This document shows positions 45,342-61,042 of a stretch of DNA of 64,000 bases, piece by piece. The stretch is taken from assembly GCF_036456085.1 (NCBI RefSeq), contig NZ_CP138632.1, forward strand, positions 372,001-436,000, given 5' to 3'. The position numbers were made by a program, and so were the translations under genes. The notes under the pieces were generated by a model, which was given only the letters and a program-made list of their open reading frames with translations, was not told the origin of the DNA and did no database searches. Numbering within the stretch: the stretch's first letter is position 1; every line of letters starts with the position of its first letter. The DNA comes from Veillonella parvula (lineage in GTDB: Bacteria; Bacillota; Negativicutes; Veillonellales; Veillonellaceae).

Positions 45342-45358
45342 AAAGTCAAAAAATCAAA
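45325..45358 (+). promoter_or_regulatory. CtsR-type GTCAAA boxes upstream of groES
   Basis: AGTCAAA at 45325-45331 (inside the end of the response regulator gene), AGTCAAA at 45344-45350 and AATCAAA at 45352-45358, the last two as a direct repeat with an 8-base period, just upstream of the -35. The same layout occurs in the ctsR promoter. Confidence 0.65.
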
Positions 45359-45366
45359 ATTAGTAC

Positions 45367-45394
45367 TTGCAATTATTTTAACTTCGGTTATAAT
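45367..45394 (+). promoter_or_regulatory. groESL promoter
   Basis: TTGCAA (45367-45372), 16-base spacer, TATAAT (45389-45394). CIRCE begins 12 bases downstream, so HrcA would cover the start site. Confidence 0.8.
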
Positions 45395-45405
45395 AATACT
45401 TGTGA

Positions 45406-45432
45406 TTAGCACTCAATGAGTTAGAGTGCTAA
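45406..45432 (+). promoter_or_regulatory. CIRCE element (HrcA operator)
   Basis: TTAGCACTC, nine bases, GAGTGCTAA: a perfect match to the CIRCE inverted repeat. It would also form a hairpin in the 5' leader of groES mRNA. Implies an HrcA repressor elsewhere in the genome. Confidence 0.97.
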
Positions 45433-56135: not shown

Positions 56136-56229
56136 AGTCAAACGTTATTTTTATGAAATTTGACTTTTATATTGACTAAAGTCAAAAAGTCAAATATAAT
56201 AGAATTATGCTAAAGAACAAATAGTCAAA
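56136..56229 (+). promoter_or_regulatory. Cluster of CtsR-type GTCAAA boxes
   Basis: AGTCAAA at 56136-56142, 56180-56186, 56188-56194 and 56223-56229; its reverse TTTGACT at 56159-56165; and TTGACT at 56172-56177. The 56180/56188 pair fills the spacer of the ctsR promoter with an 8-base period. CtsR consensus is two such heptads separated by three bases (10-base period), so the spacing is unusual. Confidence 0.7.
56172..56200 (+). promoter_or_regulatory. ctsR promoter
   Basis: TTGACT (56172-56177), 17-base spacer, TATAAT (56195-56200), 63 bases before the ctsR start. The spacer is made of two GTCAAA heptads, so bound CtsR would exclude RNA polymerase. Confidence 0.85.
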
Positions 56230-56263: not shown

Positions 56264-56743
56264 ATGAGTATGATAGCTGATAAAATAGAAAAATTTATAT
56301 TAGACCGTATGCGTGAAGAACAAGAAAAGCTAATTTTAAAGCGTAATGAATTGGCTGATGAATTAGATTGTGCGCCATCCCAAATTAGTTACGTATTAAG
56401 TACGCGTTTTTCTAATGAGCGCGGTTTCGATGTTGAGTCAAGACGTGGCTTGGGTGGATATATTCGAATCAAAAAAATTAACCCAGAAAGTTCAGATTCT
56501 TTACCTGCTGTTACAACTTATCGGATTTATGAAGGTCCAAATACGGTAGAACGATTAATTGATATGCGAGATGTAGATCAATCATTATTTCAATTATTAC
56601 AATCTGAAAAGATTACCCGTCGTGAAGCTCAATTGATGCATAATTCTTTTGCTACATTAATTGAAAATGTAGACGTAGAAGAACGTAATGATGCTGTTCG
56701 TCAATTATATGCATCAATGGTGGACACTTTGCGGAAGGAGTGA
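56264..56743 (+). CDS. ctsR: Transcriptional repressor CtsR
   Basis: Heat-shock repressor of clp and often groESL; heat or McsB-linked stress releases it. ATG 56264 (MSMIADKIEKFI) has AAGGGG 8 bases upstream; GTG 56255 overlaps that site. 159 residues, normal. N-terminal winged helix (about 5-75) with the DNA-reading SNERGFDVESRRGLGGYIRI segment (glycine-rich wing, near 47-66) and a C-terminal dimer/McsB-binding domain. First of ctsR-mcsA-mcsB-clpC, and autoregulated by the boxes upstream. Confidence 0.96.
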   Translation: MSMIADKIEKFILDRMREEQEKLILKRNELADELDCAPSQISYVLSTRFSNERGFDVESRRGLGGYIRIKKINPESSDSLPAVTTYRIYEGPNTVERLIDMRDVDQSLFQLLQSEKITRREAQLMHNSFATLIENVDVEERNDAVRQLYASMVDTLRKE

Positions 56744-56749
56744 TGATTT

Positions 56750-57289
56750 GTGTTATGTGATCATTGCCATAAAAATGAAGCTACTATCCATATGACTAAT
56801 ATCATAAATAATCAAAAGACTGAGCAACATCTTTGCAGTACTTGTGCCACCGAGTTACAACAAGCTGGGAAATTATCTCCTTATAGTTCTTTTATGAATG
56901 ATATGTGGGATAATAACTTTTTTACTAATGATTTTTTTAAGAATATGGTGTATCCAGATAACTTATTAAAAGCTCATCAATCTAAGAGATGCCCTCAGTG
57001 TGGTATTACTTATGATGAATTCAATCGGGTAGGTAAGTTTGGCTGTGGTCAATGTTATGAGACTTTTAATAGTGAAATAAATCCATTATTAGAACGAATA
57101 CAAGGTAGTTCTGAGTATGAAGGGACTATACCTAGTCGTGGTACTAATGTTTTTAAAGCAAAGTATGAAGTAAAGCAATTGCGCCGTCAATTAGATACAG
57201 CTATTCAAGCTGAAAACTTTGAAGAAGCTGCAATTTTGAGAGATAAAATTAAAAATCTAGAAGTTATCATTGATGGTGATAACGAATAG
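56750..57289 (+). CDS. mcsA: McsA, activator of McsB
   Basis: Zinc protein that activates the arginine kinase McsB. Start GTG 56750 (MLCDHCHKNEATIH) with GGAAGGAG 9 bases upstream. 179 residues. Two zinc knuckle pairs: CDHC and CSTC (near residues 3-6 and 29-32), then CPQC and CGQC (near 82-85 and 99-102); a C-terminal UVR/coiled segment (about 140-175, RRQLDTAIQAENFEEAAILRD). Six bases after ctsR. Confidence 0.92.
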   Translation: MLCDHCHKNEATIHMTNIINNQKTEQHLCSTCATELQQAGKLSPYSSFMNDMWDNNFFTNDFFKNMVYPDNLLKAHQSKRCPQCGITYDEFNRVGKFGCGQCYETFNSEINPLLERIQGSSEYEGTIPSRGTNVFKAKYEVKQLRRQLDTAIQAENFEEAAILRDKIKNLEVIIDGDNE

Positions 57290-57298
57290 GAGGTTCTT

Positions 57299-58360
57299 AT
57301 GTTAGATACTATATTGGACTCTCCGCTAAGTCAGTGGCTGTGTCAGGATACAGAGGCGACAGACCACATTGTAATTTCAAGCCGTATACGATTGGCGAGA
57401 AATTTTGATGATATATTGTTTACGAATCGTGAAGATACAGTTTCCTTAGAAAAAGTGAATACAATCTCTCGAGGCCTATTGCCAATATTAAAAAAGGCTG
57501 ATGAGCACCAATATACAAATATTAGCCTTGAGCAATTAAGTCAATGTGAACGTGCTGTCTTAGTTGAAAAGCATTTAATGAGTCCTGCTTTAGAGGAACA
57601 ATTACCGTATCGTAATTTGATCGTATCTGATGATGCTTCTATCGCAATTATGGTAAATGAAGAAGATCATTTACGTATTCAATCTATGGCTCCAGGACTT
57701 AAATTGCAACAAGCTTATAATCATGCGGTTCAAATTGATAAAGCTATCGAAGCAAAATACCCTTATGCCTTTGATGAGCGATTTGGTTATTTAACTGCTT
57801 GCCCCACTAATGTGGGTACAGGTTTACGGGCCTCTGTTATGTTACATTTACCCGCATTGACGTTATCTGGTCGTATTACGAGACTCATTCGTAACATAAT
57901 ACAACTAGGTTACTCTGTACGAGGGTTGTATGGGGAAGGTTCCGAAGCTTTAGGTTGTATTTACCAGATTTCTAATCAACGAACGATGGGTATTAGTGAA
58001 GAAGCAACTATTGAGCAATTGATTAAAATCGTAGAAGGAATTATTGCAGAAGAACGAAAGTCTCGGCAATCTTTATTACACAACGATAAAGAAGGTTTGG
58101 AAGATATACTTTGGCGATCCTATGGAATTTTACAATATGCACGACGTGTAAGCGGTAAAGAGGCACTTAGTAAGCTTAGCGACATTCAATTAGGTGTAGA
58201 TTTAGAAATATTACCATTCTGGGGTAAAGATACTTTTAATGAGCTTGTTGCTATAACTAGACCAAACTTCCTCTCTAAATACTTAGGTAGTGAAAATTTG
58301 ACAGATACCGATCGCGACAGCTATCGTGCAAAGGTGATACGTCAAAAACTTTCAAATTAA
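57299..58360 (+). CDS. mcsB: Protein arginine kinase McsB
   Basis: Phosphorylates arginines on proteins, marking them for ClpCP. 353 residues, normal. Phosphagen-kinase fold: ISSRIRLARNF (near 27), LTACPTNVGTGLRASVMLHLPAL (split across about 165-187, with the catalytic Cys in TACP) and GEGSEALG (near 215). AGGAGG before the ATG; nine bases after mcsA. Possible ClpC adaptor and CtsR inactivator, as in Bacillus. Confidence 0.95.
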   Translation: MLDTILDSPLSQWLCQDTEATDHIVISSRIRLARNFDDILFTNREDTVSLEKVNTISRGLLPILKKADEHQYTNISLEQLSQCERAVLVEKHLMSPALEEQLPYRNLIVSDDASIAIMVNEEDHLRIQSMAPGLKLQQAYNHAVQIDKAIEAKYPYAFDERFGYLTACPTNVGTGLRASVMLHLPALTLSGRITRLIRNIIQLGYSVRGLYGEGSEALGCIYQISNQRTMGISEEATIEQLIKIVEGIIAEERKSRQSLLHNDKEGLEDILWRSYGILQYARRVSGKEALSKLSDIQLGVDLEILPFWGKDTFNELVAITRPNFLSKYLGSENLTDTDRDSYRAKVIRQKLSN

Positions 58361-58594: not shown

Positions 58595-61042
58595 ATGATG
58601 CAACGGTTTACAGACGATGCACAGCGTGTTCTTTCGTTAGCTCAAGAGGCTGCTTTGGAGTTAGGACATGACTATGTTGGTACTGAACACGTACTCATTG
58701 GCCTTACAAAGGTTAAAAATGGTGTAGCAGCTAAAGCTTTAGAAGAGCTTGGCCTTGTTACAGAAGATATTTTTGAAGCTGTAGAAGAACATGTAGGACG
58801 TGGTAATAAAAAGGCAACGTCAATATATATGACACCTCGCGTTAAACATGTACTTGAGCTTGCCATTCAAGTAGCAAATCAAATGAATCACAATTACGTT
58901 GGTACTGAGCATATTCTATTGGGCCTACTTAGCGATGGTAGCGGTGTTGCAGTTGCTATTTTACGAGCTATGAATATACGTAGTAATGATGTAGTAGAAG
59001 CAATTCGTAGTATTCTTGGCTCGAATAAAGGTAGCAATAATGGTGGTCAAGAGGGAATAAATAGCAATAATGATTTAGGTGAGCTGTCAGATTTTGCAAC
59101 TGATCTTAATGAGTCTGCTAAACAAGGTAAGATTGATCCTGTTATTGGCCGCGATACGGAGATTCAACGAGTCATTCAAATTCTCAGCCGTAGAACTAAA
59201 AATAATCCTGTTCTTATTGGTGAACCAGGTGTAGGTAAAACAGCTATTGCCGAAGGCTTGGCACAGCGTATTGTGACTGATAATGTACCGGAGATTTTAC
59301 GTAATAAACGCATTATTTCTCTTAGTATTGGTTCTATGTTAGCGGGTGCCAAGTACCGTGGTGAATTTGAAGAACGGTTGAAAAAAGCCATTGATGAAGT
59401 ACAACAACATGATGATATGATTATCTTTATAGATGAAATTCATACATTGGTTGGGGCAGGTGCTACTGAAGGCGCTATGGATGCAGCTAATATCTTAAAG
59501 CCTGCTTTGGCACGAGGTGAATTCCAAGTTATCGGTGCCACAACACTTGATGAATATAAGAAATATATAGAAAAAGATGCTGCTTTAGAGCGTCGTTTTC
59601 AACCCGTTCAAGTAGGAGAGCCTAACGAAGAGGATGCTCTTGAAATTTTAAAGGGATTAAGAGATCGGTATGAAGCTTTCCATAAGGCTAAGATTACAGA
59701 TGAGGCATTAACAGCAGCTGTGTCTTTATCTAGCCGATATATTACAGATCGATTCTTACCTGATAAGGCTATCGATGTAGTCGATGAAGCTGCATCTAAG
59801 GTTCGTATGAAAGTATTTTCTTCAGCACCTGATGTTAAAGCATTAGAGGATCGCCTCAATACAGTTAAGAAAGAAAAAGAAGCTGCGGTTACGTCTCAAG
59901 ATTTCGAAAAGGCTGCAAAGCTTCGCGATGAAGAACAATTACTATTAAAAGAAATTGGTGATAAAAAATCTATTGCTAAAGAAAAAAGCGATCAAAAGTT
60001 AATAGTAACAGAGGAAGACATAGCTGCTGTAGTAGCGCAATGGACAGGCATTCCAGTGGCTAAAATTGCAGAAGAAGAGTCTGCAACCTTACTACATTTG
60101 GAAGAAGAACTTCATAAACGCGTAGTAGGTCAAGATGAGGCTGTTACTGCTGTAGCTAAAGCTGTACGCCGTGCAAGGGCTGGATTAAAAGACCCAAAAC
60201 GGCCTATTGGTTCATTCTTGTTCCTTGGGCCAACTGGTGTAGGGAAAACTGAGCTAGCAAGAGCGCTTGCATCCTCCTTGTTCGGCGATGAATCTGCTAT
60301 GATTCGACTTGATATGTCTGAATATATGGAAAAACATACTGTGTCTCGCTTAGTCGGTGCCCCTCCAGGTTACGTAGGCTATGAAGAAGGTGGACAATTA
60401 ACAGATGCGGTACGTCGCAAACCATATAGCGTTATCCTCCTCGATGAAGTGGAAAAGGCACATGCAGATTTCTTTAATATTTTGTTACAAGTTCTTGATG
60501 ATGGTCGTCTTACTGATAGTCAAGGAAGAACTGTAGATTTCAGAAATACAGTTATTATTATGACAAGTAACTTAGGTGCTAAAGCTTTACATAAAAACTC
60601 TCCAGAACTTGGTTTCTTAGCGGCTAAAAAATCTGATTTCAATGTAGATGAAAATAAAGAAATTGAGTTTAAAGAGGCTAAGAAGTCAGTAATGGATGCG
60701 GTGAAACGTCATTTTAGACCTGAGTTTTTAAACCGTATTGATGAAATGATTGTATTCCATCCATTAACAGAAGAGGACTTAAAAGAAATTGTAACTATCT
60801 TGATGAGTGATGTTACAAAACGCCTTGAAGCGCGTGATTTACAATTAGAAATCTCTCCTGAGGCTATGCATTTACTTGTTAAGGAGGGCTCTGATTTCAC
60901 AATGGGGGCTCGACCATTAAAACGTGCTATTCAACGTTTAATTGAGGACCCAGTGTCCGATCTTATTTTGAAAGGAGATGCAAAAGAAGGTAAAATTATT
61001 AAAGCAGATGCAAAGGATAACGATCTTGTTGTATCAATATGA
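58595..61042 (+). CDS. clpC: ATP-dependent Clp protease ATPase subunit ClpC
   Basis: Hsp100 unfoldase that feeds ClpP. 815 residues, normal. Start at one of two adjacent ATGs (58595 or 58598) after GAGGTGA. Two Clp_N repeats (about 1-145), first AAA+ with GEPGVGKT (near 210), a coiled middle domain with the UVR-like segment (about 415-480) that binds McsB, and second AAA+ with GPTGVGKT (near 545) plus the ClpP-contact loop. The 234-base gap after mcsB (58361-58594) holds AT-rich DNA, a weak AATGGT/ACCATT hairpin at 58519-58536, and no CtsR box that I can see, so transcription from the ctsR promoter is likely. Confidence 0.97.

Follow-up and report, generated by a model that had tools for sequence, protein, structure and literature searches.

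An 8-bp period in the predicted CtsR operators of Veillonella and its class

The window, a 64,000-nucleotide stretch of the Veillonella parvula genome, contains the gene order ctsR-mcsA-mcsB-clpC of the CtsR operon (Table 1), followed after clpC by radA, which was assigned by translation only. Between ctsR and a divergent AdoMet-decarboxylase gene lies an intergenic region of 180 bp (21% GC) with six GTCAA words. An initial annotation of this DNA had counted four direct and two reverse copies of a CtsR-type heptad within 94 bases, and we find the same six, although one of the reverse copies is imperfect (ATTGACT) and lies 12 bases from the other. The annotation also read the promoter spacer as AGTCAAA-A-AGTCAAA, and its letters and coordinates are correct: preceded by AA, these heptads and the single A between them make up the whole of the 17-bp spacer (56178-56194) that separates TTGACT from TATAAT. 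The predicted CtsR-binding sequence of this promoter is AGTCAAAAAGTCAAA. Dinucleotide-preserving shuffles of the intergenic region held a mean of 0.28 GTCAA words, and six were reached in 0 of 5000. The clustering of half-sites is local, since GTCAAA shows no enrichment across the full window (35 occurrences against 40.6 expected).

Table 1. Features of the ctsR promoter and operon, in window positions
Feature	Position	Strand	Basis
Direct half-site AGTCAAA, upstream copy, CtsR-type	56136-56142	+	Sequence
Reverse half-site TTTGACT (minus-strand reading AGTCAAA)	56159-56165	-	Sequence
Imperfect reverse half-site ATTGACT (minus-strand reading AGTCAAT); includes the -35	56171-56177	-	Sequence
ctsR promoter -35 element TTGACT	56172-56177	+	Sequence; class consensus TTGCCA-17-TATAAT
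Candidate period-8 CtsR operator AGTCAAA-A-AGTCAAA (heptads 56180-56186 and 56188-56194)	56180-56194	+	Sequence; class-wide conservation
-10 element TATAAT, abutting the second half-site of the pair	56195-56200	+	Sequence
Downstream half-site AGTCAAA, likely 5' untranslated region	56223-56229	+	Sequence
ctsR, presumed repressor of its own promoter	56264-56743	+	Pfam PF05848 (N-terminal winged-helix domain), E 3.2e-29, above cut-off
mcsA-like gene, UvrB/UvrC motif	56750-57289	+	Open reading frame and Pfam
mcsB, arginine kinase with guanido-phosphotransferase fold	57299-58360	+	Open reading frame and Pfam
clpC	58595-61042	+	Open reading frame and Pfam

The described CtsR operator, A/GGTCAAA NAN A/GGTCAAA, has a period of 10 (PMC12634643), in agreement with the initial annotation, which gave it as two heptads with three bases between. 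The Veillonella promoter shares the RGTCAAA half-site and its arrangement as a direct repeat, but in place of the three intervening bases it has one, giving a period of 8. We compared 300 bp upstream of ctsR at 118 loci of the window's class, drawn from 23 families, at 80 named Bacillales loci and at 80 other loci of the phylum, the last mostly one per family and including a few Bacilli (L234 groups with Bacillus in the tree). From gene content and from lpxC, which is present in 16 of 16 class genomes tested versus 2 of 14 others, we infer that the class is the Negativicutes. The two carriers from outside the class, G231 and G314, may on account of this gene possess an outer membrane.

Scored over the whole heptad with at most 2 mismatches in 14, and with neighbouring periods as background, a period-8 pair is found at 116 of the 118 class loci, which are not independent of one another yet spread over 23 families, compared with 2 of 80 in Bacillales and 16 of 80 in the rest of the phylum. 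The corresponding figures for a period-10 pair are 16/118, 80/80 and 71/80. Exact GTCAA pairs occur with period 8 at 73/118, 1/80 and 4/80 loci, and with period 10 at 8/118, 80/80 and 41/80. The class consensus of the ctsR promoter, CTTGCCAAAAGTCAAAAAGTCAAATATAAT, has the layout seen in the window, the operator lying mostly between the -35 and -10 elements; a period-8 pair downstream of the -10 occurs at 20 class loci. The period-10 pair lies downstream of the -10 at all 80 Bacillales loci and in 37 of the 38 other period-10 cases. Four loci of one family in the window's order (f4; L104, L113, L114 and L115) carry three reverse period-8 half-sites at the ctsR promoter.

The initial annotation had proposed tabulating the spacing of such pairs in relatives; that tabulation supports its reading, with period 8 throughout the class and the regulon, and period 10 as the rule elsewhere. 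A genome-wide search for GTCAAAN{0,7}RGTCAAA gave class matches listed from 29 of the 60 genomes searched, none of them of the window's order. Among the matches listed, the class has 150, with 63 at period 8 and 5 to 21 at each other period, and every one of the 29 genomes has a period-8 match. Thirty other genomes gave 113 matches, with 37 at period 10 and 7 at period 8 (8 versus 10, class versus other genomes, among the matches listed: Fisher p 2e-12). Among the matches listed, the only spacing to show clear enrichment is period 8 in the class and period 10 in other Firmicutes. Twenty period-8 sites away from ctsR were sampled from these matches, and their targets identified through representatives named by NCBIfam: nine lie upstream of clpB, four upstream of hsp20, one upstream of dnaK and two upstream of dnaJ-like genes, the remaining four being within genes. 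Reverse-orientation period-8 pairs are also present upstream of clpB and hsp20. One further GTCAA-N3-GTCAA site, and no other, exists in the window's own genome: a triplet of reverse copies (0/8/16) that precedes a gene for a ClpB/ClpL-like ATPase.

Some neighbouring observations deserve record. At L059, two direct half-sites 12 apart face three reverse ones at 0/8/16 (2639-2686; G000:C1:2181138-2181185); the gene that follows encodes a ClpB/ClpL-like ATPase. A third heptad, following the second at a distance of 6 bases, is present in 35 of the 80 Bacillales regions (the 300 bp preceding ctsR at L150-L229); the outer distance in this 0/10/16 arrangement equals that of the class triple sites (0/8/16). 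Elsewhere in the window, the groES upstream region (45344-45432) contains an exact CIRCE (45406-45432) and a near period-8 CtsR pair, AGTCAAA-A-AATCAAA (45344-45358); the presence of both suggests that groESL may be under double HrcA/CtsR control.

The initial annotation had raised the possibility that the repressor itself differs here, and the CtsR proteins of the class do carry class-specific DNA-binding residues (118 of 118). They form one clade in the tree (support 96/88, the bootstrap values being rough). In the predicted recognition helix, position 40 of the alignment is Asn in 100% of Bacillales and 88% of the others but in 0 of 118 class proteins, where Ser or Thr stands instead. Likewise, 0 of 118 have the second Gly of the RGGGGY wing loop (present in 100% of Bacillales and 93% of the others); its place is taken mostly by Ser or Leu, or by another residue. 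This glycine-rich loop is described as the CtsR thermosensor (PMC12634643, PMC6305308); it is typical of the family without being demanded by the Pfam model. In the numbering of L001, the window CtsR has Ser40 in the recognition helix and the wing loop R-G-L61-G-G-Y. RGLGGY marks a variant position and is no proof of altered function. The structural model (pLDDT 82, with uncertain relative placement of the domains) has the fold of both CtsR domains, its top PDB matches being 3h0d chains and, for the C-terminal domain, 6fh4.

Two candidate causes of the spacing were rejected. The change of Asn to Ser/Thr cannot set it alone, because some CtsRs of Firmicutes outside the class have Ser/Thr and keep period 10. 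A change of register in helix 1 was likewise discarded as the determinant: L060, which branches deepest within the class, has the older sequence of that helix and nonetheless shows period 8. The non-class L293 has Ser at both variant positions, and its upstream region has a single array with both periods, 10 and 8 (0/10/18), which may represent an intermediate state. Neither residue change alone explains the spacing.

The window repeats are very probably the CtsR operator of the repressor's own operon, in a class that uses RGTCAAA pairs every 8 bp rather than every 10. Judged by comparative genomics, this is a class-wide change of operator spacing within CtsR regulation, spread over the regulon. 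The class CtsR would read the usual half-site as direct repeats every 8 bp, and because this pair as a rule occupies the space from -35 to -10, the bound repressor would cover the core promoter and keep RNA polymerase out. Heat would release CtsR and permit transcription of the operon, as in Bacillus, a step that we extend from the family. In relatives, the same period-8 grammar also marks clpB, hsp20, dnaK and a dnaJ-like gene. B-DNA turns by about 34 degrees and rises by 3.4 A per base pair. A shift from 10 to 8 bp would place the half-sites some 7 A nearer to each other with a relative turn of roughly 70 degrees about the helix, and the two DNA-binding domains would therefore need a different, or more flexible, mutual arrangement from the one in Bacillus. 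We are inclined, with less assurance, to the view that the spacing underwent a single change, no later than the root of the class and for the whole regulon, with the half-site kept, by way of the recognition helix and wing loop or of the way in which the domains are held.

A spacing-tolerant rather than a switched repressor is the competing reading that we take most seriously, although we consider it the less probable one: flexibly joined domains would bind both 8 and 10, and packing into the core promoter would favour 8. The initial annotation had allowed for conserved period-10 pairs in relatives, and these are not the class rule (16 against 116 of 118), but eight class loci from eight families do have such a pair besides the period-8 pair. 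In seven of the eight it clearly follows the -10, which is its placement in other Firmicutes too, and in four it has the classical NAN middle. These pairs, along with the coexistence of both spacings at L293, speak for tolerance; the retained pairs also fit an ancestral operator that is not yet lost. The level at which period 10 occurs in the class argues the other way, for among the matches listed it (15) does not rise above periods 9 (21) and 11 (16) and mostly lacks the NAN middle. Furthermore, within the window's own family no exact period-10 pair occurs at the ctsR sites, and period 8 is found outside the promoter spacer too.

That the period-8 repeats belong to a different repressor, with CtsR acting through single half-sites or through other copies, is improbable. 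The pair is indeed surrounded by further half-sites, reversed or differently spaced, and the literature searched yielded no protein-DNA data for the class. Against this, the half-site is letter-identical to the CtsR heptad and located at ctsR itself, the pairs mark the kinds of gene that CtsR controls elsewhere, and ctsR is present in 195 of 200 class genomes. Least probable of all, and very nearly dismissed, is that period 8 is a by-product of an A-rich promoter or of squeezing two heptads into 17 bp. The region is indeed 79% A+T and the pair does lie within a 17-bp spacer, but there would be room in it for the classical period-10 operator too, whose length is also 17 bp. Dinucleotide-preserving shuffles of the intergenic region gave a period-8 pair in 0 of 5000, compared with 116 of 118 actual loci. 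Nor is the period set by the promoter spacer, because it recurs downstream of the -10 (20 loci), upstream of other genes, in reverse orientation and in triple sites at 0/8/16.

No account of a period-8 CtsR operator was found in the literature searched, a scope outside which subscription journals and regulon databases lay, and an earlier description is possible; the same literature contained no CtsR studies in Veillonella, Selenomonas or Megasphaera. The class would offer a natural case in which operator spacing has been altered for a whole regulon with the half-site unchanged, together with a short list of testable CtsR residues. CtsR regulons of the class will escape a search that uses the textbook period-10 motif. 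Heat sensing may differ as well, because the loop that serves as thermosensor in Bacillus is altered there.

The system shares with those of Bacillus and other Firmicutes the heptad, the direct repeat, the repressor family, the ctsR-mcsA-mcsB-clpC order and the class of target genes. It departs from them in its operator, which has period 8 and mostly occupies the gap between -35 and -10, whereas theirs has period 10 and almost always lies downstream of the -10. PDB 3h0d, CtsR on a 26-bp DNA duplex, is the best match of the window CtsR in sequence (about 34% identity) and of its model in structure (E 3e-10). Relative to 3h0d, the window protein has Ser for the recognition-helix Asn and RGLGGY for RGGGGY, and whole-chain superposition of the model is poor (TM 0.44-0.49), probably owing to domain orientation. 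The HrcA/CIRCE control of groESL is alike in pairing a heat-shock repressor with a repeat of its own, but there the repeat is inverted and the repressor is a different one.
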